From positions 1 through 58,546 of the forward strand of contig ONLW01000016.1 of NCBI GenBank assembly GCA_900318835.1: a DNA stretch of 58,546 nucleotides. Reading direction: 5' to 3'. The notes under the pieces were generated by a model. It worked only from the letters and a program-made list of their open reading frames with translations. It was not told the origin of the DNA and ran no database searches. Position numbers and translations under genes: made by a program. Source of the stretch: an uncultured Bacteroidales bacterium (GTDB lineage Bacteria > Bacteroidota > Bacteroidia > Bacteroidales > P3). Shown in pieces: positions 19,347-46,847 of this stretch (position 1 is the stretch's first letter; the number at the start of each line of letters is the position of its first letter).

Positions 19347-19409
19347 CAACTAGTACAACTAGTCACACTAGTAATACTAGTTGTACTAGTAAAACTAGAA
19401 ATACTAGAT
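19347..19409. repeat. Seven-unit CTAG nonamer array between uppP and truB
   Basis: CTAG begins at 19350, 19359, 19368, 19377, 19386, 19395 and 19404: seven units at an exact 9-base period. The cores are ACTAGT (five times) and ACTAGA (twice); the trinucleotide spacers (ACA, CAC, AAT, TGT, AAA, AAT) differ. The array fills the whole gap and ends one base before the truB ATG. Confidence 0.95.
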
Positions 19410-20213
19410 ATGGTCACCCTCGAACAACTACAGGCGGGCATCGTCATTCCCATTGACAAACCGCGGCAATGGACCTCATTTCAGGCTGTCAACAAAATTA
19501 AGGCCGTAGTGCGCAACACCTACGGCCTTAAAAAATTCAAGATAGGCCATGCCGGAACTCTCGACCCTTTGGCCACAGGCCTTTTGTTGGTCTGCGTCGG
19601 CAAAGCCACCAAGACCATCCCGCAGCTGCAGGACGGCGACAAGGTCTATACCGGCACCCTGGTCCTCGGAGCCACCACACCCTGCTACGACCTCGAGCGT
19701 CCCGTCGACCAATACTATCCCTATGAACACATCACCCAGCAGCTTGTCGAGGAAACGGCACGGCAGTTTGTGGGCACTATCATGCAGGTGCCACCCATGT
19801 TCAGTGCAGTGAAAATTAACGGACAAAGGGCATACGAATACGCCCGTCAAGACAATCCCACCGCCACCATCCAACCCAAATCTGTCAACGTCTACAGCTT
19901 TGAAATCACAGCCTTCCGCAAAGGCGCTAGTATTTCTAGTTCATCTAGTACTACTAGTATAAATAGTCCTACTAGAAACAAGAATCTCTACCAAAACCCC
20001 TTGGGAGAGATTCCTGCGCACCTGCCACAGGCCGACTTCCGAGTCCATTGCGGCAAAGGCACGTATATTCGCAGTCTGGCACGCGACTTAGGTCTCGCCC
20101 TCGGCGGCGGAGCATTCCTCTCCGCCCTCCGTCGCGAAAGCATAGGCGATTACACTGTTGCAAATGCGCTCTCCCTTGACCAGGTCGAATCCTTCCTGAA
20201 CGGCATCCAGTAA
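19410..20213 (+). CDS. truB: tRNA pseudouridine-55 synthase TruB
   Basis: A 267-residue enzyme that makes pseudouridine at position 55 in the T-loop of tRNAs. The catalytic motif KIGHAGTLDPLATGLL (about 46-61) includes the essential Asp, and GTYIRSLARDLG lies near residue 218. It is longer than usual because an 18-codon block (ASISSSSSTTSINSPTR, about 173-190) is inserted between conserved parts; this block is encoded by period-9 CTAG repeats. The insert is Ser/Thr-rich and probably a disordered surface loop, so activity may be kept. Confidence 0.95.
   Translation: MVTLEQLQAGIVIPIDKPRQWTSFQAVNKIKAVVRNTYGLKKFKIGHAGTLDPLATGLLLVCVGKATKTIPQLQDGDKVYTGTLVLGATTPCYDLERPVDQYYPYEHITQQLVEETARQFVGTIMQVPPMFSAVKINGQRAYEYARQDNPTATIQPKSVNVYSFEITAFRKGASISSSSSTTSINSPTRNKNLYQNPLGEIPAHLPQADFRVHCGKGTYIRSLARDLGLALGGGAFLSALRRESIGDYTVANALSLDQVESFLNGIQ
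19926..19979. repeat. In-frame CTAG nonamer array inside truB
   Basis: CTAG begins at 19927, 19936, 19945, 19954 and 19972, with ATAG at 19963: six units with a 9-base period. The cores are GCTAGT, TCTAGT, TCTAGT, ACTAGT, AATAGT and ACTAGA. Each core is exactly two codons and each spacer one codon. Confidence 0.93.
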
Positions 20214-20219
20214 TTTTTT

Positions 20220-20250
20220 TTTGCCACATCGGAAAAACTTCGTATCTTTG
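20220..20250 (+). promoter_or_regulatory. Consensus Bacteroidota promoter for the DUF349 gene
   Basis: TTTG at 20220-20223, a 19-base spacer and TATCTTTG at 20243-20250 match the TTTG-N19-TAnnTTTG consensus exactly. A leader of about 80 bases follows before the start at 20335. Confidence 0.85.
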
Positions 20251-20334
20251 CGGTTGCGCTTCCAAAAAGAGCGCACGAGATTTTAACCTGTAAAACATTA
20301 TTACAGAAGTAGTTCTATTTAAAAAAACATTACT

Positions 20335-22296
20335 ATGGAAGAAACCAACGAACTGCAGAACGCCGCCAATGAGGCTCTGCCGAACCCTGAGAACGTCACC
20401 ATCGAACAAGAGGTAACGAACCCTGAACCCGCCATTGTCGAAGAGACAGTCGCAGAACCCTCCGTCAAAGAGAAGTCGCAAACTCCTGTCAAAGAGACTC
20501 CTGCCGAGGAGGCACCTGTTGAGGAATCTCCCGCAGAAGAGGCTGAACCCGAACCCGACTACACCAATTGTACACGAGAAGAACTCGTCACTGCCATGAA
20601 GGAACTGCTGGGCTTGGATGTACAGAAAATCAAGAATCGCGTCACCAGCATCCGCAATCGTTTCAACGAATTGAACCGCGAGGTGCAAAATGCCGCCTAC
20701 GAGAAATTTCTCGCTGATGGCGGCAACAAAGATGACTACCAGTATGAGAACGACGCCGTGGCCGAAGAGATGCACCGCCTGCACGACCAATACCGCGCCA
20801 TGCGCCAGAAATATATGGAAGAACTCGAGGAACAGAAAAAAAGCAACCTCGAAGCCAAACAAGCCCTTATTGAAGAGATGCGTCAACTCATCGACTCCGA
20901 AGAGGAGCAGGTACGCACCTCTATGGACAAATTCAACAATATCCAAGAGCGTTGGAAAGCCATTGGAGAAGTGCCCCGCGAGCAGATGAACGACCTTTGG
21001 CAGAACTACCACTTCCAAATTGAACAGTTCTTCAACAAACTGAAGATCAACCGTGAGCTTCGCGCCCTCGACCAGAAGCGCAACCTTGAAGAAAAGATAA
21101 AACTCTGCGAGAACGCTGAAGAGCTCATCATGGAGCCTTCGGTAACCAAAGCTTTCAAAGGCCTGCAGGACCTCCGTGCCCGCTGGAAAGAGGTGGGACC
21201 TGTTCCCGCTGAACAAAACGAGGAAATCTGGCAGCGTTTCTGCAACGCCGCTAACCAGATTGACGAACGTCGCAAAGAATACTACGACCAGCGCAAAGAA
21301 GAGATGGACAACAACCTGCTGGCCAAGCAGGCCCTCATCGACAAAGCCACCGAGCTCACTGAGAAGCGCCCCGAGAGCACCAAAGAGTGGAACGACACCA
21401 CTGCCGCCCTCGACGAGTTGCTCAAGGTGTGGAAGACCATCGGTCCCGTACCCCGTGAGGTCAACGAGGAAATCTGGGCCAAGTTCAAGGGCATGATTGA
21501 CAAACACTACAGTGAGAAAAAAGAATACTTCGGTGCCATCCGCGACGAGCAGGAGATCAACTACCAGAAGAAAGTGGACCTCTGCCTCAAAGCCGAAGCC
21601 ATTGCCAAACGCGAGGACTGGAAGAAAGCCACCGAGGAACTGCTGGAGTTGCAGAAAGAGTGGAAAGCCATTGGTGCCACCAGCCGCAAAGTCAGCGAAA
21701 AAATCTGGCAGCGCTTCCGTAAATCCTGCGACGAATTCTTCGCCAAAAAAGGCGAGTTCTTTGCCGAGCGCCGCACCTCAGAGAGTGAGAACTTGGCTGC
21801 CAAAGAGGCCATTCTGAGTGAGCTCAAGGCACACCAATTCGGTGACGACCGCGAGGAAAACCTCTCGGCCATCAAGGACTTCCAGCGCCGCTGGGCCGAG
21901 ATTGGATTTGTGCCCATGGCCGATAAAGACCGTCTGCATAAGGAATTCCGTGGTGAAATTGACCGCATCTTCGAGCAACTGAAGATCAGTGCCCGCGAGG
22001 CCGAAGAGACCGCCTACCGCGAACGCATCAAAAACGTAGGCGGCGACGCACGCAAGTTTGTCAATAACGAGAAAGCCGAATTGCAGGAGAAGATTGAGAA
22101 ACTGCGCAGCGACCTCAACCTGTGGGAAAACAACTTGGGCTTCCTTGCCAGCTCCAAGCAGGCCGACCTGCTGAAGCAGGAGTTCGAGAAGAAAATGCAG
22201 GGTGCCCGCCAACAGATTGCCCTCATGCAGGCCAAACTTCGCATCCTCAACGAAGCTGAGAAAGCCGAGAAGGAAGAACCTAAAACTGAAGAATAA
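20335..22296 (+). CDS. DUF349-repeat protein
   Basis: A 653-residue, highly charged, mostly helical protein. A Glu/Pro-rich disordered N-terminus (about 1-80) is followed by repeated DUF349 units of about 70 residues, each with a pattern like WKAIGEVPREQ, then W, then F, then FF (for example near 205, 283, 365, 435, 520). Coiled-coil heptads fill the last 120 residues. DUF349 proteins occur widely in bacteria; their molecular role is not settled. It has its own consensus promoter and is followed closely by a glycosyltransferase gene. Confidence 0.85.
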   Translation: MEETNELQNAANEALPNPENVTIEQEVTNPEPAIVEETVAEPSVKEKSQTPVKETPAEEAPVEESPAEEAEPEPDYTNCTREELVTAMKELLGLDVQKIKNRVTSIRNRFNELNREVQNAAYEKFLADGGNKDDYQYENDAVAEEMHRLHDQYRAMRQKYMEELEEQKKSNLEAKQALIEEMRQLIDSEEEQVRTSMDKFNNIQERWKAIGEVPREQMNDLWQNYHFQIEQFFNKLKINRELRALDQKRNLEEKIKLCENAEELIMEPSVTKAFKGLQDLRARWKEVGPVPAEQNEEIWQRFCNAANQIDERRKEYYDQRKEEMDNNLLAKQALIDKATELTEKRPESTKEWNDTTAALDELLKVWKTIGPVPREVNEEIWAKFKGMIDKHYSEKKEYFGAIRDEQEINYQKKVDLCLKAEAIAKREDWKKATEELLELQKEWKAIGATSRKVSEKIWQRFRKSCDEFFAKKGEFFAERRTSESENLAAKEAILSELKAHQFGDDREENLSAIKDFQRRWAEIGFVPMADKDRLHKEFRGEIDRIFEQLKISAREAEETAYRERIKNVGGDARKFVNNEKAELQEKIEKLRSDLNLWENNLGFLASSKQADLLKQEFEKKMQGARQQIALMQAKLRILNEAEKAEKEEPKTEE

Positions 22297-22302
22297 GCCA
22301 TC

Positions 22303-23319
22303 ATGGCCAACGCAACCATAGGCTATATCTTGCACAGTGGCAAAAACTCTAAAGCCGGCTATTATGTCAAAGCCGGCTTTAGAGATATTCTGCCCAATAT
22401 CCTATTCCGTGGCCGTCTGAAGCACGAGATGGAGACCTGCCAACGTCTCTATGACGGAGCCTACATCGAAGACCGCGTGAATTACTACTGCCGCTTCAAC
22501 GAGCGTCGCGCCTTGGGGCCTGGAGCCCAAAGCATCGGAGGACTGCTGAAACGCAACCACGGCAGTACCTACTATTATGATAGTCGCGAACTACTGCAGT
22601 GGTTCAATCCTGATTTGCGATGGAACTATGTCTTTGGCGATGTACGCGACATTCCGCCCTACCCTTCCATCGTGAAAAGTCGTAGCCTAAGTAATGATAC
22701 CCACGCTTTGGGGAGTGAAGACAACAGCAACAGTGTGTTGCTGAAGTTGGATAAATGCCGCCACTACGTCTTCCTGCGCGACCGCCGTCCATTTGAGGCC
22801 AAAACCGACCGTGCCATCTTCCGCGGCTACATCGGCCAACGGCCCAACCGACTACTTTTTTGCAACACCTTCGCTGACAACCCTCGTGTTGATGTAGCCA
22901 ATACCCTTTCGGGGGGCAGTCCCTTTGCCGAGGAGAAGATTCCCAACTCTGGCAACGCCGCACCACGTCTATCACTCTACGAGCACCTCGACTACCGCTA
23001 CATCATGGCCCTCGAGGGCAACGATGTAGCGTCGAACCTCCGATGGGTAATGTCAAGCAATTCATTGGCCGTCATGCCCAAGCCTACATGCGAATCGTGG
23101 TTCATGGAAGAACGACTTGTTCCGGGAGTTCACTACATCCTCGTCAAAGATGACTTCAGCGACCTCGAGACTCAACTCGACTACTACAGCAGCCATCTTG
23201 AAGAGGCTAGGGAAATTGCAAGAAATGCCAACCTCTATGTCGACCAGTTCCGAGACCTGCGACGTGAACGTTACATAGGCCTCCGGGTGCTGGAGAAATA
23301 TTTCAAACTAACCAACTGA
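22303..23319 (+). CDS. Glycosyltransferase family 90-like (CAP10-type) enzyme
   Basis: A 338-residue soluble protein. The C-terminal part has LYEHLDYRYIMALEGNDVAS, then LRWVMSSNSLAVMPKP, then ESWFMEE and PGVHYI; this matches the sugar-nucleotide-binding region of the GT90/CAP10 family, which adds xylose, glucose or other sugars to polysaccharide or LPS. No membrane segment is seen. It is six bases after the DUF349 gene and overlaps gldB by one base. The first 30 codons include a perfect 14-bp inverted repeat that encodes KAGYYVKAGF. The family call is moderate; substrate unknown. Confidence 0.65.
   Translation: MANATIGYILHSGKNSKAGYYVKAGFRDILPNILFRGRLKHEMETCQRLYDGAYIEDRVNYYCRFNERRALGPGAQSIGGLLKRNHGSTYYYDSRELLQWFNPDLRWNYVFGDVRDIPPYPSIVKSRSLSNDTHALGSEDNSNSVLLKLDKCRHYVFLRDRRPFEAKTDRAIFRGYIGQRPNRLLFCNTFADNPRVDVANTLSGGSPFAEEKIPNSGNAAPRLSLYEHLDYRYIMALEGNDVASNLRWVMSSNSLAVMPKPTCESWFMEERLVPGVHYILVKDDFSDLETQLDYYSSHLEEAREIARNANLYVDQFRDLRRERYIGLRVLEKYFKLTN
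22347..22384. repeat. Perfect 14-bp inverted repeat in the 5' coding region of the GT90-like gene
   Basis: CTCTAAAGCCGGCT (22347-22360) pairs perfectly with AGCCGGCTTTAGAG (22371-22384) across a 10-base loop. It lies 44 bases inside the gene and would make a very stable mRNA hairpin. Confidence 0.9.
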
Positions 23320-24254
23320 TGAGACACATACTCACATACCTCCTGCCAGCAATGCTGGCTTTTGTTGCCTGTGGACACCCAGCCGAACCGGTAAAGATTC
23401 ACCGGTTCGAACAGTTCTTGTTCGCCAACCAAGGGGAAACCGCCAACTTTCAAACGCCACTACTCAACTATTACCCTGACGACCCCAACTTTATGGCCGT
23501 GCTGAACGACTTCCGCAACGATCCCATCGTTCGCCATATCTATGAAGTAACCGACAGTCTCTATCACGACCTCTCGTGGCTTGAGCAGGATCTGGGTGAC
23601 GCCATAGCAAAGACCCACGAGATTTGCCCCGAAATCGACTACCACAATTTCTACACACTTGTCACAGCCGACTTCGACAACTACGCCAACCGGGTTTTCT
23701 GCAACCTTAACGACATGGCTATCGCCATCGATTGCTACACCCTCGGTCACAGCGAGGAGATGCAACGCTTCGGTGTACCCAATTACATAATGAACCTTTG
23801 CCGTCGCGAGTATATAGCCTCTGACGTCATGGCCACCGCCGCCCGTAGTCACATTGCACTGCCCGATGGTGACCTTACCTTTCTCGATCATGCCATTGCA
23901 GAAGGCAAGACGCTTTATTTCGTCGACCAAGTGCTTCCTTCCACTCCCGATACCATCAAGATACGCTACACGAAGGAGCAACTCGACTGGATGAAAGAGA
24001 ATACTGAGAACGTATGGGGATGGCTCATCCAGAACGATGTGCTTTTCAGTACTGACATGACAAAATTGCGCAACCTCCTTGACGATGCCCCGAAGACCAA
24101 CGCCTTTGGAGAAGGCTCCGCACCCCGCACCGGTGATTATATCGGATGGCAGATTGTCAAACAATACATGAAGAAAAGTGGTGCCACCATGAGCGAACTC
24201 TTCGCTGAAACCAATAGCCGTAAAATCTTGGAACAATCGGGATGGCGCCCGTAA
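23319..24254 (+). CDS. gldB: GldB-like gliding/T9SS lipoprotein
   Basis: A 311-residue lipoprotein with a signal peptide ending FVACG (lipid-modified Cys about 18) and a domain that matches GldB: RFEQFLF near the start, then SDP-like and YNFYT segments, and a C-terminal PRTGDYIGWQIVKQYMKK with ILEQSGWRP. In gliding Bacteroidota GldB is needed for motility; here, with T9SS cargo in the window, it more likely supports T9SS function. Start and previous stop overlap as TGATG. Confidence 0.78.
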   Translation: MRHILTYLLPAMLAFVACGHPAEPVKIHRFEQFLFANQGETANFQTPLLNYYPDDPNFMAVLNDFRNDPIVRHIYEVTDSLYHDLSWLEQDLGDAIAKTHEICPEIDYHNFYTLVTADFDNYANRVFCNLNDMAIAIDCYTLGHSEEMQRFGVPNYIMNLCRREYIASDVMATAARSHIALPDGDLTFLDHAIAEGKTLYFVDQVLPSTPDTIKIRYTKEQLDWMKENTENVWGWLIQNDVLFSTDMTKLRNLLDDAPKTNAFGEGSAPRTGDYIGWQIVKQYMKKSGATMSELFAETNSRKILEQSGWRP

Positions 24255-24266
24255 AGACAAAAAACT

Positions 24267-27037: not shown

Positions 27038-27345
27038 ACAACATAGTCTTTTCCACCAATCCCGACTCCAACTATAGCGACGAGGAGCCCAAGGTGGAAA
27101 CCCTTGCTCCCGAACGCCAGAAACTCCGCGTCAGCATAGAGCGCCACCACCGTGGCGGCAAGACCGTCACCCTGATAAAAGGATTCGTGGGAACAGACGA
27201 TGACCTGCAGGCCCTCGCCAAACAATTGAAAACCAAATGCGGGACAGGTGGAAGCGCCAAGGACAGCGAAATCATCATCCAAGGCGAAGTGAAGGACAAA
27301 GTCCTCACCCTCCTGCAATCCCTCGGTTACAAAAATTCAAAATAA
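27034..27345 (+). CDS. SUI1/eIF1-like translation factor (YciH family)
   Basis: A 103-residue protein with the SUI1 fold (about 30-103): RHHRGGKTVTLIKGFVG, LAKQLKTKCGTGGSAKD and IIIQGEVKDKVLTLLQSLGY. These are the standard motifs of bacterial YciH proteins, which affect start-site choice in translation. It overlaps the lipid kinase gene by four bases. Confidence 0.9.
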   Translation: MNNIVFSTNPDSNYSDEEPKVETLAPERQKLRVSIERHHRGGKTVTLIKGFVGTDDDLQALAKQLKTKCGTGGSAKDSEIIIQGEVKDKVLTLLQSLGYKNSK

Positions 27346-27347
27346 TT

Positions 27348-28243: not shown

Positions 28244-28256
28244 TACCCCGTAACCC

Positions 28257-29513: not shown

Positions 29514-29584
29514 AATAAAGTTAACGACAAAAGCCACATTATAGTATACGTTCCCTAAAAAAAACTTTTTACCCCCTGCCACAC

Positions 29585-29632
29585 CCCTACCAACACCTAC
29601 CATGGTAGGAGTTGGTTAGGAGTTGGTAAGGC
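29585..29632. repeat. Palindromic repeat family P, copy 2
   Basis: The centre CCTACCATGGTAGG (29596-29609) is a perfect 14-base palindrome. It is flanked by CCTACCAAC on the left and GTTGGTTAGG on the right, which pair in turn, followed by another AGTTGGTAAGG. It lies upstream of the transglycosylase gene in a divergent region. Confidence 0.85.
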
Positions 29633-29842
29633 GTTCATAAGTGGTTATCAGCTAGTTAACATCTAAACAACATCTAAACTCATCCTTCTTATATCTGACA
29701 ATCAATAAATTAAACCAACTTTTACCCTTGTAACTCACTGATTTCCAATTTCAGTTTCATTGAAGAAAAAAACTTGCAAAATCAAAAAAAATTTACGTTT
29801 ATTTGCAGAAAGATTCATTTCAAACACAAAAACAATATCAGC

Positions 29843-29914: not shown

Positions 29915-29964
29915 GGTCTTCTTATGATAATCATTCCTGCCACGAACAATAAATATCAGTTACA

Positions 29965-30456: not shown

Positions 30457-30498
30457 GTGCTCCTGCAAGCGAAACGCCTGCGCTTCAAAAAAAAATTT

Positions 30499-30530: not shown

Positions 30531-30566
30531 TTATAGAAAATATTTATAGGAAAAGAAGAAGAAGAG

Positions 30567-31622: not shown

Positions 31623-32875
31623 CGCCATTAGCGGAGATACTGAGGCCTAAGAGCCTGGATGACTATATTGGACAACAGCACCTGATAGGACCGGGTGCTG
31701 TTCTTCGCACATTGTTAGAGAGCGGCAATATTCCGAGCATGATTTTCTGGGGTCCTCCAGGCATTGGGAAGACTACGCTGGCGATGATTATTTCCAATAC
31801 TCTCAACCGTCCCTTCCACACCCTCAGTGCTATCAATAGCGGTGTGAAAGAGGTGCGCGAGGTAATCAATGCCGCCCAGAAGGAAGATGGAGCTATTTTG
31901 TTCATTGACGAAATCCACCGCTTCAACAAGGCGCAACAGGACTCGCTGCTTGGGGCTGTGGAGCGTGGCACAATCACGCTGATAGGTGCCACCACCGAGA
32001 ATCCTTCGTTCGAAGTCATCTCAGCTCTTTTGAGCCGCTGCCAAGTATATGTGCTAAAGGAGTTCGGTGAGGAGGAGATGCGGAAACTGATAGATGCTGC
32101 CGTGCAACACTATGCCTCGCAAGGGATTACCGTGGAGGTAACGGAGGCCGACGCGCTGATGCGCATCAGCGGTGGCGACGCAAGAAAGTTACTCAATGCG
32201 ATAGAGCTGGTGGTGAATCGGAGTAATCAGAATAATCAGATTATTCTGAATAATTCCTCTGTGACCACCGTCATCCAACAGAACCTGGCCTACTACGACA
32301 AGGGTGGCGAGATGCACTACGACATTATCTCGGCCTTTATCAAATCAATGCGCGGCTCAGACCCCAACGGGGCGGTCTACTGGCTGGCAAGAATGATTGC
32401 AGGTGGCGAAGACCCGCTGTTCATCGCACGCCGCATGCTGATCTTCGCCAGCGAGGATATCGGCAATGCCAACCCCAATGCATTGCTGCTGGCCAACGCT
32501 ACCTTCGAGGCGGTAAGCAAGATTGGGTATCCCGAATGTCGCATCAACCTCTCACAATGCGCCTGCTACTTGGCCTGCTCGGTAAAGAGCAATGCGACAT
32601 ATATGGCATTGAAGAATGCGGAGGAGGCTGTGCGCCGTTGGGGCGACCTGCCAGTGCCTCTGCATATCCGCAACGCCCCCACCAAGCTCATGAAAGGCAT
32701 GGGGTACGGCGACGGCTATAAATACGCCCACGATTATGAGGGCAACTTCGCCCTTCAAGAATACCTTCCCGCAGGTCTTGAAGGTTCTCATTTCTACGAC
32801 CCCTGCAACACCCCACGCGAGAACGAGACACGACGCTCGCTTCACGAACACTGGGGGGAGAAATACGGATATTAG
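31619..32875 (+). CDS. rarA: Replication-associated recombination protein RarA (MgsA)
   Basis: A 418-residue AAA+ ATPase of the RarA/WRNIP1 family that acts at stalled replication forks. Walker A is [12 protein letters not shown] (about 43-54), Walker [23 protein letters not shown] (about 95-115) and sensor [10 protein letters not shown]. The MgsA C-terminal tetramerisation domain covers about 245-415. Between the AAA lid and that domain it carries [15 protein letters not shown] (about 200-214), encoded by an in-frame period-9 repeat. The gene meets folC tail to tail with a 4-base overlap of the stop codons. Confidence 0.95.
32222..32257. repeat. In-frame AATAAT nonamer array inside rarA
   Basis: Units AGTAAT-CAG, AATAAT-CAG, ATTATT-CTG and AATAAT-TCC. 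The period is 9, the core is two codons and the spacer one codon. The third core and its CTG spacer are the reverse complement of the others, so the array folds on itself. Confidence 0.9.
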
Positions 32876-34125: not shown

Positions 34126-35852
34126 TTGTGAGGCATTGTGTATGTTAAACCGAGGATGAAGAGTCCCTTCTGCGAGGGGTAGTTGCTCCAATAGTAATAG
34201 CGCTGGAATGCGAGGTTGTCCATCTTGAGGAAGAAAGAGAGGGCGCGGTTGTGGCGGTACTCCACTTCGGCGTTGATGCCGTAACGCATGGGCAGTTCCT
34301 CGTTGTTGTCGCCCTGCATCTTTCCCAGCAGCTGTCCTTCGAGGTGGAAGAGCCACTTGTCGTTGTAGTTGACATCGGCAGAAGCCAGAAGGTCCCAGTC
34401 GGGACGATAGAGAGGCTTGATACCGGACTGCCCGGTCTTATTATAGTAATAGTGTCCGCCGAAGCGAAGAGTAAGCATCTCGTCGTTGACAAAAGCGATG
34501 TCGGCACCCATGATAAGGCGTTTGTTGTCGAAATAGAGAGGAGTGTAGACGTTGTCGAGTTGGTATGAGGGATCAAGCGTGAAGGTAAGATCATCCTGCA
34601 ATGATGTGTAACGTATCTCCGCATTGGCCTCCAGTTTCTTGCTGATAGTCCAGCGGGCATGGCCAGTAAGGTCGTAGTGGCGAGTAGCACGCTGGTAAGC
34701 ACCTGAAACCACATAGGGGTTTATTCTGCGAATAACATCCCAATTGTTGGCATCAAAACCGCCTGTGAGACCTAGGCTGAGCACCAAGGCCTCTTTCATA
34801 AGGCTCTTGCTAACCACTACGTCTGGGAAAAAGCGGAATGTAACCTCCGACGGATCGGTGAAACCATCCCACCCTGTGGTAAATCCGGCATGGAAGAGGA
34901 GGCCGCTGTACATAAAATCAACGTAGGGATTAAGCTTAACGATATTGCGGCTTCCCTTATAGTTAATAGTAAGCGGTGTGGGAGAATAGCCCAGCGGCAT
35001 CTCACCACCGGGACTGTAGCTGAACTTATAGGCGTCCCATTCGGCCTGCAGGTAGGCCACACCTTTCACTTCGCGCAGCATCATGAAACCATAGTGGATG
35101 TCGCCGCTAAGGTTGAGATTAAACTCGTTCTGGTTCCACGAGGCCCAGAGATCACTCACACGCACATTGGCATTATAACCCAGCTTGTATCCGTCAAGCT
35201 GCATATTCTTCACACCAGCGTTCCAGGTAAAGACATTGTATTTTGCTTTATAGTCGCCTACAGAAATATCGTCGCGGTCCTTGCCGAGTGTCACCTGCAG
35301 TTTGTCGTCAGTGAATCCATAATAAAGATTGTGGTCGTGCTCATAGTTGAGATCTGTGGAAAGTTGCAATTTATCGGCGAGAATATATTTACCAAAGAGG
35401 GTAACTCCCGTGAGGCCAAAGAGATTCTTACCATAGTCGGGCAACGTGCCCCATGACGAGCGGTGGTTGATACGAATGCCGTAGGTCTTCTCGCGGTCAC
35501 GCGTCGAACTCCAATAGAGGTCGGCCAGAGGACTCCAGTAGTTGCCCATACCCAGACGCAGATAATTGCTGTAAAGCCTTGTGGCTGGTTCACCAAGGAT
35601 ACGGGCAGCCTTAATGCGCGAAGGCTCGTATGTCGAACGAAGGCGCCGCGGCGTGATAGAGTACTGGAATGTGTGGTCAAAGCGCGTCATCGTGTCAGTA
35701 ATCACAGCAGGAAACTGTACTTTCTCAGCCTGTTCAATCACCGGGCGAAAGGATCCCTTCACCAACACACTCTCATTGTAAGTCTCTTCCTGCTGGGCAT
35801 AAACCATCGTGCCCATCAGGCCCATCAGACCTATAAATAATATCTTTTTCAT
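34122..35852 (-). CDS. Outer-membrane beta-barrel protein (TonB-receptor-like, no plug seen)
   Basis: A 576-residue protein with a signal peptide (about 1-20, ending MVYAQ) and a mature part made of alternating, aromatic-rich beta strands (for example FSYSPGGEMPLGYS, YVDFMYSGLLFHAGF, MLTLRFGGHYYYNK) that ends RYYYWSNYPSQKGLFILGLTYTMPHK. This is typical of Bacteroidota outer-membrane barrels; no clear plug domain or TonB box is seen. It lies between a TPR protein and folC in an operon. Three codon triplets of the signal peptide (GLMGLMGTMV) come from a period-9 repeat. Ligand unknown. Confidence 0.7.
   Translation of the reverse strand: MKKILFIGLMGLMGTMVYAQQEETYNESVLVKGSFRPVIEQAEKVQFPAVITDTMTRFDHTFQYSITPRRLRSTYEPSRIKAARILGEPATRLYSNYLRLGMGNYWSPLADLYWSSTRDREKTYGIRINHRSSWGTLPDYGKNLFGLTGVTLFGKYILADKLQLSTDLNYEHDHNLYYGFTDDKLQVTLGKDRDDISVGDYKAKYNVFTWNAGVKNMQLDGYKLGYNANVRVSDLWASWNQNEFNLNLSGDIHYGFMMLREVKGVAYLQAEWDAYKFSYSPGGEMPLGYSPTPLTINYKGSRNIVKLNPYVDFMYSGLLFHAGFTTGWDGFTDPSEVTFRFFPDVVVSKSLMKEALVLSLGLTGGFDANNWDVIRRINPYVVSGAYQRATRHYDLTGHARWTISKKLEANAEIRYTSLQDDLTFTLDPSYQLDNVYTPLYFDNKRLIMGADIAFVNDEMLTLRFGGHYYYNKTGQSGIKPLYRPDWDLLASADVNYNDKWLFHLEGQLLGKMQGDNNEELPMRYGINAEVEYRHNRALSFFLKMDNLAFQRYYYWSNYPSQKGLFILGLTYTMPHK
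35804..35830. repeat. Period-9 repeat in the signal peptide of the outer-membrane barrel
   Basis: On the coding strand: CTGATGGGC, CTGATGGGC, ACGATGGTT. CAT occurs at 35805, 35814 and 35823 on the plus strand, an exact 9-base step, in phase with the codons. Confidence 0.8.
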
Positions 35853-35862
35853 AATTCTCGAT

Positions 35863-38800: not shown

Positions 38801-38970
38801 ATCTCGTCGTAAATCTGCTGTGCGGCGGCGTATTTCTGTTTGCCGTAAAGGTCCATGGCCTGACGGTAGAGCTCTCGCTGTCGGTCACCCTCACTCTTCT
38901 TCTGCCCATAGGCCATCGGGGGCATCACCCCCATTAAACCCATCAGTCCCAATAAAATCAGCTTCTTCAT
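35863..38970 (-). CDS. Large TPR-repeat exported protein
   Basis: A 1035-residue protein with a signal peptide (about 1-23, ending AYGQ) and tetratricopeptide or Sel1-like helical repeats along almost its whole length (examples: AMDLYGKQKYAAAQQIYDEIA near 38; KALEQYRLVDEAIKL near 265; YDEAQETFEELERMI near 535; YDQALTTFDKLLTEYPGT near 680; KAAPYYQRMVENAE near 835). Such arrays bind partner proteins. It lies between a redoxin-like protein and a beta-barrel, 12 and 10 bases apart, so the three probably form an envelope complex or pathway. Part of the signal peptide is encoded by a period-9 repeat. Confidence 0.85.
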   Translation of the reverse strand: MKKLILLGLMGLMGVMPPMAYGQKKSEGDRQRELYRQAMDLYGKQKYAAAQQIYDEIAQGAADRTDMTTADACYFAGACSEKLDNNDASYRLEEFLRLYPQSSRCNMARFYLGNFYYARNEWKEALVWYNQVNTSEVEYNHRSEFNFKKGYCHFQQGDKAKAAKCFAQQIDGQSKYRTSSLYYYAHIQYMNGEYESALKNFKELENDKKFGKIAPSYIARIYYYLGREDELLELAPRLLNDKDAFRRNEVHQMVGEVYFNRGEYGKALEQYRLVDEAIKLEQTQSCTPQDNDYQIGYCHYQAGDYAKAAEFLARKTVCEDSVAQNAMYVLGDCYVRMGKRKEARSMFLQSSKMNFDPKIKEDALFNYAKLSCELNESAYNENIRAMESYLKQYPHTVHKTEVQEILTELYCSTSNYKDAIRLLEEIPQRNAALERAYQRAVLNRGIELCNSGKMDEGEAMYAKAVKINAVPRITADANYLLGEAHYRAGRYDEAEKCMNKLLLSSFSKTSPYAADARYAYGYLQMRKKKYDEAQETFEELERMIDGNDAKERTMRNDVWNRIGDCRYVQSRFAEAIKMYNKVIDAKSKDADYATYQKALAYGAQGKNNEKLTYLNYIFEKFENSPLKSKAMLEIANTYMMCDNNEMAMTYYNNFKKQYPQSVYVKTALLNEGLIYYNTDRYDQALTTFDKLLTEYPGTDEARDALSTVKNIYVAQNRVAEYFPYVERTTKVKVSTLEQDSTIFMAVEERYQEGRYDVAVSGLEDYLQRFPNGMFALKAHYLLADSYNRQAQGDGFADNRDWCSKALPHYEWVVQSGSNQYSERSLTAAANIAFSLGDYAKAAPYYQRMVENAETNQSLLQGEMGALRCAVALNRDAEIITAGQRVMGETKATAEMKDEAALAMARTCFDNGRREMAFTYYGNLTRSANGEFNGEARCRQAEILMLEEKLDQAEKMIESIVKDASSDYWLAYSFILWADIYYARGNNLQAKQTLQSIIDNYDGEDLVSVARQKYAAIVATEQPKEPVEGEEMVIEL
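38914..38949. repeat. Period-9 repeat in the signal peptide of the TPR protein
   Basis: On the coding strand: CTGATGGGT, TTAATGGGG, GTGATGCCC, CCGATGGCC. CAT falls at 38914, 38923, 38932 and 38941 on the plus strand. The peptide is LMG LMG VMP PMA. Confidence 0.85.
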
Positions 38971-38982
38971 ATCTTCTTTTTC

Positions 38983-40401: not shown

Positions 40402-40484
40402 TTATATATATACATTATTAATTCCACCCTATTAACGCAACCCCACTATTTTTATTGTACACTTGAATAAAAAATAATCCCAAC

Positions 40485-40572
40485 ACCCTACCAACGACCT
40501 ATCATCCCCCTATCAACTCCTACTATAGTAGGACATGGCTAGGAGTTGGTTAGGAGTTGGTAGGGAGATGAT
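40485..40572. repeat. Palindromic repeat family P, copy 3
   Basis: The core TCCTACTATAGTAGGA (40518-40533) is a perfect 16-base palindrome. The left arm has CCTACCAAC and CCTATCA units; the right arm has TAGGAGTTGGT twice in tandem, then AGGGAGATGATA. It is the longest of the three copies. Confidence 0.85.
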
Positions 40573-40679
40573 ATTTAGTTTCAAGCAGTTGGAATTGTCG
40601 TTTTTTTTGACCTACTTTTCATTTTTCTTAAAAAAAATTTTACATTATATACAACTATAATTCAGCATATTATATTTTA

Positions 40680-40703
40680 TTCGATAAAAAAGGTACGATT
40701 TTT
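40680..40703 (+). promoter_or_regulatory. Regulatory element shared by aspA and sdhC (aspA copy)
   Basis: TTCGATAAAAAA, two bases (GG), then TACGATTTTT. The same sequence with AT in the middle occurs at 51720-51743 upstream of sdhC. The distance from its first base to the first base of the -7 box is 47 bases here and 48 there. Confidence 0.65.
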
Positions 40704-40734
40704 TTTGTCACATTAGTTTTTTTTTGTATTTTTG
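40704..40734 (+). promoter_or_regulatory. Consensus Bacteroidota promoter for aspA
   Basis: TTTG at 40704-40707, exactly 19 bases, then TATTTTTG at 40727-40734. The start codon of aspA is 78 bases further on. Confidence 0.85.
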
Positions 40735-40811
40735 CCTCTCGAAAGAAACGGAGAAAATCCATCAAGAAATTGAAAAACAACAAATAAAACATTATAAACA
40801 TTCATTATAAT

Positions 40812-42224: not shown

Positions 42225-42234
42225 AATAGACATA

Positions 42235-43581
42235 ATGTTTAAAAGTTTAATGGTTAATAAATTAAAGATCTCAAAAGGTCTCGATATTCCTCTCGGCGGC
42301 TCCGCCGAGAGGTTTGTCGTTGACACACGAGGCGTGGAGCGCTACGCCGTGAAGCCGCCAGATGTGGTGGGTTTCACGCCGCGGCTGCTTGTCGCCGAGG
42401 GCGACACGGTGGTCGCCGGACAGCCCCTGGTGCAGGACAAGCGCGACGAGCGGCTCTTCCTGCCCTCGCCCGTGAGCGGCACGGTGGAGGCCCTAGTGAG
42501 GGGTGAGAAGCGCAAGCTGCTGGAAGTGGTGGTTTGTCGGACCAGTCAGACTAGTCTGACAAGTCTGACAAGTCTGACCCCGGAGGCCCCTGTCTGGTGG
42601 ATGATTAAAGAGCGTCCGTTTGGTATTATCGCCAATCCCGACCATAAACCCAAAGGTATATTTGTCAGCCTCCGCGACACCAACCCTTTGGCTCCAGACC
42701 TTGACTTCGCGCTGAAAGGGCGCGAGCAGGAGTTCGAAGCTGGCGTGAAGGCGCTGGAGGCTTACGGTGAGGTGCACCTGGTGAAGGCCGAAGGCCCCCA
42801 CCCTGCCGGGAATATCGGCACTATCGTGGCGGTTCTCGACCCTATCAACAAAGGAGAATATGTGTGGAGCGTGAACGCGCAGGATGTTGCCAATATCGGT
42901 CGCTGGTGTCTCACAGGAGAATACAAGCCGGAGCGGGTGATTGCCGTAGGTGGACCCGCAGCGAAGTGCCCGAAATACTATAGGGTGATTTGTGGGGCTT
43001 GCATGGAAAGAATTAGCGAGGCGCAGATGATGGATGCTAGTTATCCTAGATTATCTAGAGAAACTAGAGCATCTAGAGAAACTAGAATTATCTCTGGCAG
43101 TCCGCTTTCGGGCAGCACCGTTGCCCCCAACGGATTCCTCGGGATGTACGACCAGCAGGTGTGCTTTATCGAGGAGGGCGACAAATACGATTTTATGGGA
43201 TGGCTGATGCCGGGGTTGAAGAAATTTAGCTTCAGCAAGACATTCCTGAGCGGCTTGCTAGGAAAACTAGGAAACCTAGAAATCCTAGATACTCTAGGAA
43301 TGCCTAGGATGTCCTATAACTTCAACACTAACGTCCACGGCTCCGTGCGTCCGTTCCTGTTCACAGGGTCGTTCGAGCGGGTCTTCCCGTTCGACATCTA
43401 TCCGCTGCAGCTTATCAAGGCCTGCATCGTGGGCGACGTGGAGTTGCAGGAAAAACTCGGCATCTACGAGGTAGAGCCAGAGGACTTTGCGCTGTGCGAG
43501 TTCATCGACCCCTCGAAGACCGAGATACAGAGCATTATCCGCGAGGCGCTTGAAGTCCTCAGAAAGGAGGCTATCGCATGA
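42235..43581 (+). CDS. nqrA: Na+-translocating NADH:quinone reductase subunit A
   Basis: A 448-residue peripheral subunit of the Na+-NQR complex. The beginning (KLKISKGLDIPLGGSAE) and the barrel-sandwich segment (PSPVSGTVEALVRGEKRK) are typical. A second ATG at 42250 matches the usual family start better. The gene carries three separate in-frame period-9 repeats: TSQTSLTSLTSLT (about 103-115), ASYPRLSRETRASRETR (about 268-284) and LGKLGNLEILDTLGMPR (about 342-358). All three would fall in loops if the protein is to fold. It overlaps nqrB by four bases. Confidence 0.93.
   Translation: MFKSLMVNKLKISKGLDIPLGGSAERFVVDTRGVERYAVKPPDVVGFTPRLLVAEGDTVVAGQPLVQDKRDERLFLPSPVSGTVEALVRGEKRKLLEVVVCRTSQTSLTSLTSLTPEAPVWWMIKERPFGIIANPDHKPKGIFVSLRDTNPLAPDLDFALKGREQEFEAGVKALEAYGEVHLVKAEGPHPAGNIGTIVAVLDPINKGEYVWSVNAQDVANIGRWCLTGEYKPERVIAVGGPAAKCPKYYRVICGACMERISEAQMMDASYPRLSRETRASRETRIISGSPLSGSTVAPNGFLGMYDQQVCFIEEGDKYDFMGWLMPGLKKFSFSKTFLSGLLGKLGNLEILDTLGMPRMSYNFNTNVHGSVRPFLFTGSFERVFPFDIYPLQLIKACIVGDVELQEKLGIYEVEPEDFALCEFIDPSKTEIQSIIREALEVLRKEAIA
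42541..42579. repeat. In-frame nonamer array 1 in nqrA
   Basis: Cores ACCAGT, ACTAGT, ACAAGT and ACAAGT start at 42541, 42550, 42559 and 42568, with spacers CAG, CTG, CTG, CTG. Each core starts at codon position 1. Confidence 0.9.
43036..43089. repeat. In-frame CTAG nonamer array 2 in nqrA
   Basis: CTAG at 43037, 43046, 43055, 43064, 43073 and 43082. The cores are GCTAGT, CCTAGA, TCTAGA, ACTAGA, TCTAGA and ACTAGA with spacers TAT, TTA, GAA, GCA, GAA and ATT. The phase is locked to the codons. Confidence 0.93.
43258..43311. repeat. In-frame CTAG nonamer array 3 in nqrA
   Basis: CTAG at 43258, 43267, 43276, 43285 and 43294, then CCTAGG at 43303. The core/spacer pairs are CTAGGA-AAA, CTAGGA-AAC, CTAGAA-ATC, CTAGAT-ACT, CTAGGA-ATG and CCTAGG-ATG, again two codons plus one codon. 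Confidence 0.92.
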
Positions 43582-44723
43582 CGATTAAATGGTTAGAGAA
43601 GTGGTTCGAGAAGATTGAACCCAAGGGCAAATGGGCCTGGTTGGGGAGCACCTACGAGGCGTTCCACACCTTCGCTTTCACGCCCAAGACGGTGACCAAG
43701 AGCGGATCGCATATCCGCGACGCGGTGGACATGAAGCGCAGCATCATCATCGTGGTGATTGTGCTGATTCCAGCGCTGCTGTTCGGTATGTGGAATATCG
43801 GCTATCAGCATTTTCTTGGTGTCGAAGGGCAAACCTTCGACCACACTATATTAGAGTGCTGGTGGTTCGGATTCCTGCGCATGCTGCCACTCATCGTGGT
43901 GAGCTACGCCGTGGGCTTGTTTATAGAGTTTGCCTTCGCCCAGTATCGTCACCATGAGGTGAACGAGGGCTACCTGGCTACGGGTCTGCTGATACCGATG
44001 ATTGTGCCGGTCACCACGCCGCTGTGGCAGGTGGCGCTGGCCGTGGCTTTCGCCGTCATCATCGGCAAGGAGGTCTTCGGCGGCAGCGGCATGAACTTCC
44101 TCAACCCTGCTCTCGTGGCGCGCGCTTTCCTCTTCTTCGCCTACCCGACGCACATGAGTGGCGACAAGGTGTGGATTGCCAACGACCTCTGGGGCTCTGA
44201 CGCTATCGCCGGTGCTACGCCTATGGGCGAGTTGGCCGCTGGCTCTCATCCCAGCGCTTCGGCCCTCGACATGCTTATCGGCACCATCCCAGGCTCCACC
44301 TGCGAGACCTCCGTCATCGCCATAGCACTCGGTGCAATACTGCTGCTCTTCACGGGCATTGCTTCCTGGCGCATCATGTTGAGTGTGTTTGTTGGCGGCG
44401 GCGCCATGGGACTGCTGTTCAACGCCATCGGCTATAACGACTACATGCAGTTGCCGTTCTACTACCACTTCCTGATGGGCGGCTTCGCGTTCGGCGCGGT
44501 CTTCATGGCCACCGACCCCGTGACCGCTGCGCAGACCAACTGCGGCAAGTGGATCTACGGCCTGCTCATCGGTGCCTTCGCCGTGCTGCTGCGCGTCTGC
44601 AACCCCGCCTACCCCGAAGGCATGATGCTCAGCATCCTCTTCATGAACTGCATGGCTCCGCTGATTGACCACTGTGTTGTGGCGACCAACATCAAACGTA
44701 GAGAAAGGAGGATTGCCCGATGA
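43578..44723 (+). CDS. nqrB: Na+-translocating NADH:quinone reductase subunit B
   Basis: A 381-residue membrane subunit of Na+-NQR with about nine to ten helices. SDAIAGATPMGELA (about 207-220) contains Thr214, which fits the site of covalent FMN attachment in this family; PALVARAFLFFAYP and GGFAFGAVFMATDPVTAAQT are also typical. It takes part in quinone reduction and Na+ movement. It overlaps nqrA and nqrC by four bases each. Confidence 0.95.
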   Translation: MTIKWLEKWFEKIEPKGKWAWLGSTYEAFHTFAFTPKTVTKSGSHIRDAVDMKRSIIIVVIVLIPALLFGMWNIGYQHFLGVEGQTFDHTILECWWFGFLRMLPLIVVSYAVGLFIEFAFAQYRHHEVNEGYLATGLLIPMIVPVTTPLWQVALAVAFAVIIGKEVFGGSGMNFLNPALVARAFLFFAYPTHMSGDKVWIANDLWGSDAIAGATPMGELAAGSHPSASALDMLIGTIPGSTCETSVIAIALGAILLLFTGIASWRIMLSVFVGGGAMGLLFNAIGYNDYMQLPFYYHFLMGGFAFGAVFMATDPVTAAQTNCGKWIYGLLIGAFAVLLRVCNPAYPEGMMLSILFMNCMAPLIDHCVVATNIKRRERRIAR

Positions 44724-45391
44724 AAAAGACTTTCAGCAACCGCTATATCTTCATCTACTCGGCGGCATTGGTGGTGGTGGCGGCGCTCATCCTCACGGTG
44801 GTGAGCGTAAGCCTCAAGCCACTGCAGACCCGCAACCAGCAGGCCGAGACCAAGCAGATGATCCTGAAGACCATCGGTGTGGAGGCCACACGCGACAACG
44901 CCGACAAGCTCTTTGACCAATACATCTCTGTAGGGGCGTACCCCAGTGTACGCCCTGACGAGGCTACCGAAGAGGGCGTACACGGGAGTACGCCCCTACA
45001 GTTCTATCGCTATGATGGAGGAATCATCATCCCTATGCGCGGTACCGGCCTGTGGGGACCTATCTGGGGATATCTTGCTCTCGACAATAGCAGCACCGTC
45101 GTGGGTGCCGTCTTCGACCACAAGGGCGAGACGCCCGGCCTCGGCGGCGAGATTGCCACCGACAAGTTCGCCGCCCGCTTCATCGGCAAGCGCATGGACA
45201 CCCAAGCCATCCACCTGGCCAAGAACGCCGACAAGAGCAACCCCTATGAGGTCGACGCCATCAGCGGCGGCACCATGACCAGCAACGGCGTCACAGCCAT
45301 GCTAGCCAAAGCCTATAACGACTACAAAAATCTGAATACTCAGAATACTCCGAGTACTCCGATTAATCAGAGAAAGGAGGCTACCGAATGA
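44720..45391 (+). CDS. nqrC: Na+-translocating NADH:quinone reductase subunit C
   Basis: A 223-residue subunit with an N-terminal helix (about 9-30) and a periplasmic FMN-binding domain. DAISGGTMTSNGV (about 179-191) carries the flavin-bearing Thr185; most relatives have SGAT, here SGGT. Two repeat elements lie in frame: a large inverted repeat that encodes about residues 70-94 (SVGAYPSVRPDE, then GVHGSTPL), and a period-9 array that encodes the C-terminal NLNTQNTPSTPINQR. It overlaps its neighbours by four bases on both sides. An ApbE flavin transferase would be needed but is not in the window. Confidence 0.93.
   Translation: MKKTFSNRYIFIYSAALVVVAALILTVVSVSLKPLQTRNQQAETKQMILKTIGVEATRDNADKLFDQYISVGAYPSVRPDEATEEGVHGSTPLQFYRYDGGIIIPMRGTGLWGPIWGYLALDNSSTVVGAVFDHKGETPGLGGEIATDKFAARFIGKRMDTQAIHLAKNADKSNPYEVDAISGGTMTSNGVTAMLAKAYNDYKNLNTQNTPSTPINQRKEATE
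44928..45001. repeat. Large inverted repeat with hairpin arms inside nqrC
   Basis: The left arm 44928-44956 and right arm 44973-45001 are reverse complements at 27 of 29 positions, with a 16-base loop. Each arm is itself a hairpin: GGGCGTAC pairs with GTACGCCC. The ends are CTGTAGGGG and CCCCTACAG. It is translated in frame. Confidence 0.92.
45332..45374. repeat. In-frame nonamer array at the 3' end of nqrC
   Basis: Units CTG-AATACT, CAG-AATACT, CCG-AGTACT, CCG-ATTAAT and CAG begin at 45332, 45341, 45350, 45359 and 45368. Here the cores AATACT, AGTACT and ATTAAT are palindromic or nearly so. Confidence 0.9.
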
Positions 45392-46002
45392 AGAACTTCG
45401 ACCTTATCAAACTCCCCTTCAGCAAGGAGAACCCCATCCTGGTGCAGGTGCTGGGCGTCTGCTCCTGCCTGGCGGTGACGGCGCAGCTGAAGCCCGCCGT
45501 GGTGATGTCGCTGAGCGTCATCGTCGTGGTGACGCTGGCCAACCTCATCGTCTCGCTGCTGCGCAACACCATCCCGCCGCGCATCCGCATCATCGTGCAG
45601 CTCGTCGTCGTCTCCACCCTCGTGGTGCTGGTCGACCAGGTGCTGAAAGCCTACGTCTACGACGTCAGCAAGCAGCTCTCGGTCTTCGTGGGCCTCATCA
45701 TCACCAACTGCATCGTCATGGGCCGCCTCGAGGCCTTCGCTATGGTGCAGAAGCCGCTCCCGAGCGTCCTCGACGGCCTGGGCAACGGCCTCGGCTACAG
45801 CGTCATCCTCATCGCCCTGGGCTTCGTCCGCGAGCTCTTCGGCAGCGGCACCCTCTGGGGCTACCCCGTGATGGAGAAGCTCGGACTCTACGGCATCGGC
45901 TACGAGAACAACGGCCTGATGATCATGCCCCCCATGGCCCTCATCCTCGTCGGCCTCATCATCTGGTGGCACCGCTCGAAAAACAAAGACCTCTGCGAGT
46001 AA
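45388..46002 (+). CDS. nqrD: Na+-translocating NADH:quinone reductase subunit D
   Basis: A 204-residue membrane subunit with six helices. LGVCSCLAVTAQLKPA (about 16-31), LIITNCIVMGRLEAFAM (about 107-123) and LIALGFVRELFGSGTLWG (about 135-152) are typical of NqrD; paired with NqrE it forms the membrane core and holds an iron centre between conserved cysteines (Cys in GVCSC and in TNC). It overlaps nqrC by four bases. The gap to nqrE (188 bases) is unusually long and holds a 24-base repeat array. Confidence 0.95.
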   Translation: MKNFDLIKLPFSKENPILVQVLGVCSCLAVTAQLKPAVVMSLSVIVVVTLANLIVSLLRNTIPPRIRIIVQLVVVSTLVVLVDQVLKAYVYDVSKQLSVFVGLIITNCIVMGRLEAFAMVQKPLPSVLDGLGNGLGYSVILIALGFVRELFGSGTLWGYPVMEKLGLYGIGYENNGLMIMPPMALILVGLIIWWHRSKNKDLCE

Positions 46003-46067
46003 TGAAAACGACTTTTGTAACCATCTTCGTAAATGCATAAAACACAACCGATTATGAGCCTGCCAAT

Positions 46068-46155
46068 GAAAGCCTCGTTTTCATGCCGAACAAAAGCCTC
46101 GCTTTTATTGCCTATAAAAGCCTCGCTTTTGTCACCCATAAAAGCCTCGCTTTTG
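46068..46155. repeat. Four-unit 24-base hairpin repeat between nqrD and nqrE
   Basis: AAAAGCCTCGCTTTT (variant GAAAGCCTCGTTTTC in the first unit) occurs at 46068, 46092, 46116 and 46140, each followed by nine variable bases. Each 15-mer is a hairpin (AAAAGC / GCTTTT around CTC). The units stay open in frame on both strands, reading KSLAF on plus and KSEAF on minus. Confidence 0.92.
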
Positions 46156-46190
46156 TTCCGACCCATAACCTCGTACCAAAAAAACGCCTA

Positions 46191-46805
46191 ATGGACTACA
46201 TTAACATATTCATCAAGTCGATATTTGTCGACAATATGATATTCGCCTTCTTCCTCGGCATGTGCTCCTACCTTGCCGTGTCGAAGACGGTGAAGACCTC
46301 CGCGGGACTGGGCATCGCCGTCACCTTCGTGCTGCTCATCACCGTGCCAATCAACTTCCTGCTGAACAAGTACTTCCTCGCCGACGGCGCGCTGGCGTGG
46401 CTCTCGCCCTCGCTGGCCAATGTCGACCTCAGTTTCCTGAGCCTCATCATGTTTATCGCCGTCATCGCAGCCATCGTGCAGATGGTCGAGATGGTGGTGG
46501 AGAAGTTCAGCCCCGCGCTCTACAACTCGCTGGGCATCTTCCTGCCGCTCATCGCCGTGAACTGCGCCGTCATGTCGGGCTCGCTCTTCATGCAGGAGCG
46601 CGGCTATGCCAACATCGGCGAGGCCACGGTCTTCGCCCTCGGCAGCGGCATCGGCTGGTTCCTGGCCATCGTGGCCATCGCCGCCATCCGCGAGAAGCTG
46701 CGCTACAGCCACATCCCGCCGGCACTCCGCGGCGTGGGCATCACCTTCATCATCACCGGCCTCATGGGCCTGGCATTCATGTCATTTATGGGCTTCAAAC
46801 TCTAA
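46191..46805 (+). CDS. nqrE: Na+-translocating NADH:quinone reductase subunit E
   Basis: A 204-residue membrane subunit with six helices, the partner of Nqr[19 protein letters not shown] (about 24-41) and [20 protein letters not shown] (about 118-137) are typical. The frame is open for 36 codons upstream through the 24-base repeats ([18 protein letters not shown]), but ATG 46191 gives the normal start [20 protein letters not shown]. An extended form starting at 46083 cannot be excluded. Confidence 0.94.
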
Positions 46806-46813
46806 ATCACACC

Positions 46814-46847
46814 GCCCATTAACCCCATTAACCCCATTAGCCCCATG
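46814..46847. repeat. Period-9 repeat between nqrE and nqrF, overlapping the nqrF start codon
   Basis: Units CCCATTAAC, CCCATTAAC, CCCATTAGC and CCCATGTCC; CAT falls at 46817, 46826, 46835 and 46844, and the last one contains the nqrF ATG. On the other strand the unit is TTAATGGGG, close to the signal-peptide repeats at 35804 and 38914. Confidence 0.92.

Follow-up and report, generated by a model that had tools for sequence, protein, structure and literature searches.

Runs of short, mostly palindromic boxes at a 9-bp step in gut and rumen Bacteroidales, seemingly kept at the DNA level by a genome-varying influence

Comparison with described repeat systems

The short tandemly repeated repetitive (STRR) sequences of Calothrix and Nostoc are degenerate heptameric repeats, and it is with repeats of this kind that we compare a set of arrays found in a 58,546-nt stretch of DNA from an uncultured Bacteroidales bacterium (P3; contig ONLW01000016.1 of GCA_900318835.1; "the window" below), in which a box of 4–6 bases, here called the core, recurs every 9 base pairs (bp) between variable spacers. 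It seems that some gut and rumen Bacteroidales hold such 9-bp-step runs of palindromes, kept at the DNA level by an influence that varies from genome to genome. A short box, a fixed step and a free spacer are also found in the operators of the ribbon-helix-helix (RHH) proteins CopG, MetJ and omega and in MraZ boxes, and CopG itself contacts TGCA-N5-TGCA, a 9-bp step. To our knowledge RHH-type operators are few per genome, not dozens within unrelated genes; our arrays share the short palindromic boxes at a fixed 9-bp step, and a resident protein of the RHH_1 family was not found to accompany them. Rickettsia palindromic elements are in-frame, tolerated palindromic insertions in housekeeping proteins, but they are longer and are copies of one family; unlike them and unlike miniature inverted-repeat transposable elements (MITEs), the arrays share no blocks between different loci.

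In the accessible part of PMC4692102, degenerate heptameric repeats, including the Xanthomonas repeat GGGAATC, are a known genome-specific kind without an agreed role. Compared with what is given there, our arrays are likewise genome-specific, dispersed and degenerate, and likewise lie at the same places across related species with variation in length and sequence. They differ in period (9 instead of 7), in keeping just the 4–6 base box where heptameric repeats keep the whole unit, and in placement, since heptameric repeats are intergenic whereas 32 of 51 CTAG and 23 of 26 TCNGA arrays are coding and others often lie directly before starts. Separate period-7 arrays of the same genomes resemble the heptameric repeats more closely. 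The palindromic amphipathic repeat coding elements (PARCEL), as outlined in the available portion of PMC2996958, are palindromic coding repeats of punctate distribution that form 25-residue domains with a protein-level motif, unlike our 9-bp units with their two reading phases and untranslated leaders. Repetitive extragenic palindromic (REP) elements, in the section of PMC3733652 at hand, are short dispersed single palindromes of 20–40 bp with GTAG or CGTC tags; the likeness to our 9-bp arrays is that of short dispersed palindromes. In a search of the open-access literature (subscription papers and preprints were not covered) none of the entries listed describes such repeats in this group. As far as that literature and the accessible text of these papers go, degenerate heptameric repeats are the closest in print, and the period-9 box arrays are a variant that differs in period, box-only retention and placement.

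Excess and distribution across genomes

Four consecutive CTAG-N5 units (the x4 pattern) gave 39 forward matches in the window's genome (2,336,476 bp, 94.6% complete) against 0 for a reversed-pattern control. With a degenerate array defined as four units and at least five invariant columns, a 458-kb sample of the genome held 24, 9, 32 and 28 arrays at periods 7, 8, 9 and 11 and none at period 10; the same 458 kb after codon shuffling held means of 0 to 1.0, with about 1 at period 9. Codon use, named in a first-pass annotation of the window as one thing that could undo its reading, thus does not explain the count. E. coli K-12 (150 kb, periods 5 to 23) and two sister genera (40 kb each, periods 5 to 11) had no degenerate arrays.

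The x4 pattern is present in 45 of 149 genomes of the family, that is in 44 of the 79 sampled from the window's genus (0–251 matches per genome; 77 in genome G100) and in 1 of 70 from 11 other genera. The reversed control matched in 1 of the 149 (G009, GATC, 3 matches) and in 3 of 20 genomes reached via named loci (1, 25 and 1 matches), these 20 having been selected for holding arrays. A five-unit scan of named genomes gave at least 117 matching stretches, and among the 80 examined by name 63 had Bacteroidota names, 13 belonged to other groups and 4 had no group name. Cultured isolates with x4 matches include Prevotella sp. tc2-28 (21), Prevotellamassilia timonensis (27) and Prevotella conceptionensis 9403948 (142), and so metagenome assembly is not the cause of the arrays. 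The 13 loci of groups other than Bacteroidota hold 14 arrays, of which 10 have no more than half of their spacers different, and on viral contigs (119 loci) 59 of 135 CTAG arrays have a Gly-X-Y reading; given so few differing spacers and such readings, the pattern alone is not diagnostic there.

Arrays in the window

The first-pass annotation had reported arrays at ten places and at 46814. All eleven are present on inspection, with details corrected, and are as follows (strand unassigned except where given):

11289..11316, CTAG array, 4 CTAG with gaps of 6 then 9 and 9, the short CTAG-N5 run starting at 11295, 20 bp upstream of a minus-strand open reading frame (ORF) starting at 11269
19350..19407, CTAG-N5 array, 7 units, occupying most of the 64-bp gap between the uppP-like stop and the truB start and ending 2 bp before the ATG
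19927..19975, CTAG-N5 array, 5 CTAG across 6 unit positions, in a variable TruB loop
32218..32249, TCNGA-N4 array, 4 units, inside a RarA-like AAA ATPase
35804..35830, minus strand, weak CCCAT-type array, 3 units, close to the start of a minus-strand ORF
38914..38949, minus strand, weak CCCAT-type array, 3–4 loose units, close to the start of a minus-strand ORF
42537..42577, TCNGA-N4 array, 5 units, NqrA loop A1
43037..43085, CTAG-N5 array, 6 units, NqrA loop A2
43258..43307, CTAG array, 5 in-register units and a sixth CTAG at a 10-bp step, NqrA loop A3
45331..45371, TCNGA-N4 array, 5 units, NqrC C-terminal tail, with the next start codon 16 bp on
46815..46846, CCCAT-N4 array, 4 units, in the nqrE/nqrF gap and reaching into the nqrF start codon

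In profile searches of the window's proteins the TruB assignment was above its NCBIfam cut-off, the upstream uppP-like gene was below that of the UppP model TIGR00753 (198 bits against 217.5), and the RarA-like ATPase was below the cut-offs of both NCBIfam models PRK13341 and PRK14700. An Rfam scan of the window gave no match at the gathering threshold.

The window thus has three cores, CTAG, TCNGA and a weaker CCCAT, the last being loosely common to 35804, 38914 and 46814, of which just 46815–46846 passes a three-unit CCCAT-N4 search. Of the cores first proposed, CTAG stands; AATAAT, AATACT and AGTACT belong to the spacer of the TCNGA arrays, and at 32222, 42541 and 45332 the invariant part had been misread and is TC-N-GA every 9 bp. 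The arrays account for 28 of the 47 CTAG of the window, 20 pairs of CTAG are separated by exactly 9 bp, and the tetramer is scarce elsewhere (observed/expected 0.29 outside arrays).

Cores and periods differ between genomes

The cores differ between genomes as well as between loci. We surveyed ten core patterns as three-unit matches in samples of 80–459 kb, where codon-shuffled means were 0–0.4 throughout, and found the following genome-specific core sets:

G000: CTAG 42, TCNGA 21, CCCAT/ATGGG 5, TTAA 2
G150: TCCGGA 5, CCCAT/ATGGG 2
G096: CCTTA 11, TAAGG 3, TTAA 3, CCCAT/ATGGG 2
G061: TTAA 14, TCNGA 6, CCTTA 4, CTAG 3
G119: CTAG 39, TCNGA 39
G129: CTAG 35, CCCAT/ATGGG 1, TCNGA 0
G117: TCNGA 2, TTAA 1
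G201: CTAG 25, TCNGA 3

Genomes that favour other cores, such as TCCGGA or CCTTA/TTAA, keep the 9-bp step, and 150 kb of E. coli had no three-unit match for any of the ten patterns. The period, too, differs by genome. Prevotella conceptionensis (G201) has period 8 almost alone: in 400 kb one and the same test counts 84 arrays at period 8 and 4 at period 9; it also has 46, 35 and 35 arrays at periods 16, 22 and 24.

Orthologous loops hold different arrays

The three array sites of NqrA, compared over 30 loci (the window's and those of 29 relatives), are hypervariable loops that hold, depending on the species, CTAG, TCNGA, AAGGNCCTT, TCCGGA or ATGGG arrays, heptamer arrays (some with inverted arms), or none. 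The contents of the TruB loop vary between species in the same manner, and the truB leader carries CCTAGG- or CTAGGA-type arrays in G087, G061, G095 and G100. The NqrC tails of 21 species comprise 6 clean empty sites without an insert (G105, G095, G185, G168, G120 and G101), 5 CTAG arrays, 1 decayed CTAG array, 4 TCNGA arrays, 4 other tails and 1 incomplete sequence. Judged from these alignments, the array segments are not ancient loops common to all relatives, the other finding that the first-pass annotation had said would tell against it. Near the TruB N terminus there is, in addition, an in-frame insertion of three copies of a ~60-bp repeat in the truB genes of G096 and G089 (L389 and L390), which no other truB sequence readable in the comparison has.

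Conservation of the core

Substitutions were compared in 64 ungapped orthologous pairs from 75 query arrays, with gapped pairs excluded and with arrays of identical sequence counted once, here as in the spacer, block and placement counts below. Changes were found at 214 of 1172 core, 422 of 1145 spacer and 1681 of 8682 flank positions. Where a four-fold site encodes the same amino acid in both sequences, the base is unchanged in 112 of 157 cases in cores, 10 of 24 in spacers and 425 of 760 in flanks (56 pairs, after 9 of 65 had been excluded for unclear reading frame). The core is thus conserved at synonymous sites, and the constraint acts on the nucleic acid, which bears out the earlier suggestion that something acts on the core. 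Four-fold core identity is 85/86 if the subject keeps at least 60% of the cores and 27/71 otherwise, by a split that is itself biased; among 55 ungapped pairs all cores are kept in 18, none in 16, and 21 are intermediate.

NqrA gives the sharpest individual cases. At loop A2, G121 and G104 differ at 0 of 16 core and 12 of 15 spacer positions, the spacers being near saturation. We write the repeat unit of CTAG-type array DNA as ACTAGTNNN and its six-fold form as (ACTAGTNNN)6; the counterpart form carries CTGG/CCAG. In G105 all 6 CTAG of loop A2 have become CTGG or CCAG by one transition each, and 0 of 25 spacer bases have changed. G171 has a decayed A3 array, and its 77%-complete genome has 0 three-unit CTAG matches.

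Growth of the arrays

Identity between spacers two units (18 bp) apart exceeds the order-shuffled expectation, both in 204 arrays with 1084 spacers from which viral loci were excluded (125 against 85.7 ± 6.2) and in the 61 that belong to the genus (25 against 14.0 ± 2.7). Neighbouring spacers show a shortage of identity in the larger set (90 against 107.8 ± 7.0) that has no counterpart in the genus alone (16 against 17.6 ± 2.7). Over all array types, with arrays of at least 5 units, there is a lag-2 excess of identity at periods 8 and 9 (z 5.9 and 5.3), an excess at lags 1 and 2 at period 7 (z 3.4 and 2.8), and one at lag 1 at period 11 (z 4.7).

Orthologous arrays with at least three CTAG on both sides are equal in length in 30 of 69 pairs, and 28 of the 39 others differ by exactly 9 bp. 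Together, the 18-bp identity excess and these one-unit differences argue that slippage or unequal exchange takes part, probably as slippage by single units in both directions, and the earlier view that spacers are never copied is not supported. Length differences of 18 bp number 10 among all pairs, arrays or not. Two-unit hairpin slippage, which the 18-bp identity excess brought to mind as a growth step, was rejected because the orthologue length step is 9 bp, and template switching in the form of spacer inversion was rejected with 0 of 58 changed spacers inverted. Nor was any copying of array blocks between loci seen: in 44 arrays from 6 genomes, two-spacer words are shared in 2 of 2151 comparisons within and 5 of 9905 between genomes, and three-spacer words in 0 of 1156 and 0 of 5716.

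Placement in coding sequence and leaders

Gene calls came from a simple script based on codon scores, and gene edges are approximate. The 51 distinct CTAG arrays of the sampled genus stretches comprise 32 coding and 19 not wholly coding. Of the coding arrays 8 are read as CTA-G and 24 as NCT-AG (hyphens mark codon boundaries), the third phase being one that would give a TAG stop, so that the core beginning at codon position 1 is not a general rule. Of the not wholly coding arrays, 14 of 19 have a start codon at most 30 bp downstream, or 9 of 13 if those touching a gene edge are set aside, against 367 of 4358 random non-coding 31-mers. In 6 of these 14 TAG is in frame with the downstream start; these arrays are therefore leaders, and the 9-bp step is present in untranslated sequence too. 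For 9 of the 32 coding CTAG arrays the next start is at most 100 bp downstream, against 5.0% of random coding positions, and 5 of the 51 arrays fall outside both coding sequence and the 30 bp that precede a start. None of the 3 TCNGA arrays outside coding sequence is within 30 bp of a start.

Possible origin of the arrays

The best explanation, to which we give about an even chance of being right, combines local growth by slippage with a lineage-specific, sequence-reading factor that imposes the core. An array would arise from a local seed containing the core, and this seed would be duplicated by slippage or unequal exchange, one and sometimes perhaps two 9-bp units per step, after which the spacers would drift. 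What imposes the core would be a trans-acting, lineage-specific factor able to recognise short and mostly palindromic boxes on double-stranded DNA when these are spaced 9 bp apart, and if the factor were lost the cores would decay. It is the building of arrays separately at each locus, the core shared across one genome, the synonymous conservation and the leader placement that favour a trans-acting reader over passive slippage. Such a factor could act in two ways. The arrays may be functional oligomeric binding sites held by selection, or they may reflect molecular drive, in which the bound factor would block replication or transcription at occupied boxes, promote slippage there and so amplify its own site wherever the host tolerates it. 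We lean slightly to the second, since arrays occur in unrelated host genes and one loop can change from one core to another. In its strongest form, each lineage's factor would write its own core over older cores at tolerant loops; such a self-amplifying binding-site drive would be categorically new if true, and we put it forward tentatively, as a rather unlikely idea. Trans-acting box writing at dozens to hundreds of sites would, if true, be a new source of in-frame protein variation, and factor-written cores a new kind of genome signature. It would also turn an old puzzle, the fixed period and genome-varying core of degenerate short-period repeats, into a testable question. Even with a passive cause the arrays record repeat birth, turnover and decay in the coding DNA of gut and rumen bacteria.

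Several results weigh against a trans-acting reader combined with slippage. RHH_1 proteins (CopG type, PF01402) are encoded by 3 of 119 genomes of the genus, the window's genome not among them (other RHH families were not searched), and with this near absence a CopG-like ribbon-helix-helix coat is rejected as far as PF01402 shows. HU-HIG, also rejected as the reader, is present in all 119, with a copy number that does not follow the arrays (Spearman 0.15, p 0.19, n 78). Two or three cores in one genome mean that several factors would be needed, and CCCAT is not palindromic. G105 retains 29 three-unit CTAG matches elsewhere despite its lost A2 cores, a combination that a simple on/off factor does not explain. 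The 18-bp identity excess is unmatched by length, as 0 of the 69 array pairs differ by 18 bp. Most of the orthologue evidence comes from a handful of loci, among them nqrA and nqrC, with pairs that are not independent, and single spacers are shared more often within genomes (70 of 2854) than between them (172 of 11,874), an excess that may reflect shared composition or some exchange.

The arrays might instead be made by their own self-complementarity, through hairpin-assisted slippage and quasipalindrome template switching, with no trans factor and with cores that are chance founders. Period-9 cores are mostly palindromes, many period 7, 8 and 11 arrays of the same genomes are arms of imperfect hairpins, the CTGG/CCAG mix of G105 is still complementary between units, and the window's genome has no SbcD match. 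In yeast coding DNA, the part of PMC8604942 at hand indicates, inverted-repeat arms are homogenised by template switching. This passive account leaves unexplained why separately built loci of a single genome have one core; reverse-complement spacers within arrays are moreover at the shuffle expectation (10 against 10.0), changed spacers are not inverted, and ordinary intergenic DNA, presumably the most tolerant, holds few CTAG arrays. Arrays are present in 16 of 35 genus genomes with SbcD and 28 of 44 without (Fisher p 0.17, Mann-Whitney p 0.07, uncorrected for kinship), and we reject SbcD loss as a permissive factor, the difference being a trend only. We consider the passive origin possible, yet on balance unlikely.

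The other explanations fare worse. CTAG, TCNGA, TCCGGA and CTTAAG are all type II recognition sequences and the presence of arrays is patchy across species, as might be expected if the cores were sites of resident restriction-modification systems at which breaks are repaired with slippage. Avoidance of the core does not track array type in seven genome samples, and so restriction-site avoidance was rejected: CTAG observed/expected is 0.12 in G150 and 0.17 in G096, both samples without three-unit CTAG matches, 0.29 in G000, and 0.81 in G201 with its 142 CTAG x4 matches genome-wide. We regard such a footprint as quite improbable. Spread of arrays among loci as mobile or copied cassettes, in the manner of MITEs or Rickettsia palindromic elements, could account for the 6 of 21 nqrC tails that are empty where others hold CTAG or TCNGA arrays and for the single spacers shared within genomes; the dearth of shared two-spacer words and lack of three-spacer words speak against it, and it is very improbable. 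Least probable of all is selection on the protein for tripeptide repeats or flexible loops, which the many arrays in variable loops and tails and the Gly-X-Y readings of viral contigs would suit, but which does not agree with reading in two phases, with in-frame TAG in untranslated leaders and with conservation of the core at synonymous sites. The interpretation of the first-pass annotation as a whole is thus partly supported.

Other repeats and neighbouring features

Imperfect hairpins or arms with an 11-bp period lie between genes of the window at 29573–29650, 40477–40574, ~14800–14870 and 50726–50837, the first three being of GTTGGTAGGAG type. The 458-kb sample has 28 period-11 arrays, 27 of them intergenic, and 9 of 22 joined places are between divergent genes, against 28 of 137 gaps of at least 60 bp. 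The period-11 motifs differ in other genomes. Two related period-11 hairpins on one contig (L069:7220–7370 and L069:14481–14574) have apparently unequal numbers of tip repeats, which suggests growth at the tip. SbcD (TIGR00619) is above cut-off in 35 of the 79 genus genomes, and hairpin-rich genomes may tolerate hairpins better. Period-7 arrays are found in the window at 7719–7798, which folds as a heptamer hairpin, and at 15819–15854. Tandem repeats of 24 bp occupy 46061–46157 and 20436–20498; the former, with 4 copies and a AAAAGCCTCGCTTTT core, is self-complementary and spans the nqrE start. Finally, a 1041-aa ORF at 154–3279 lies in a stretch of ~36–45% GC, against 53% for the window, and is possibly acquired DNA.

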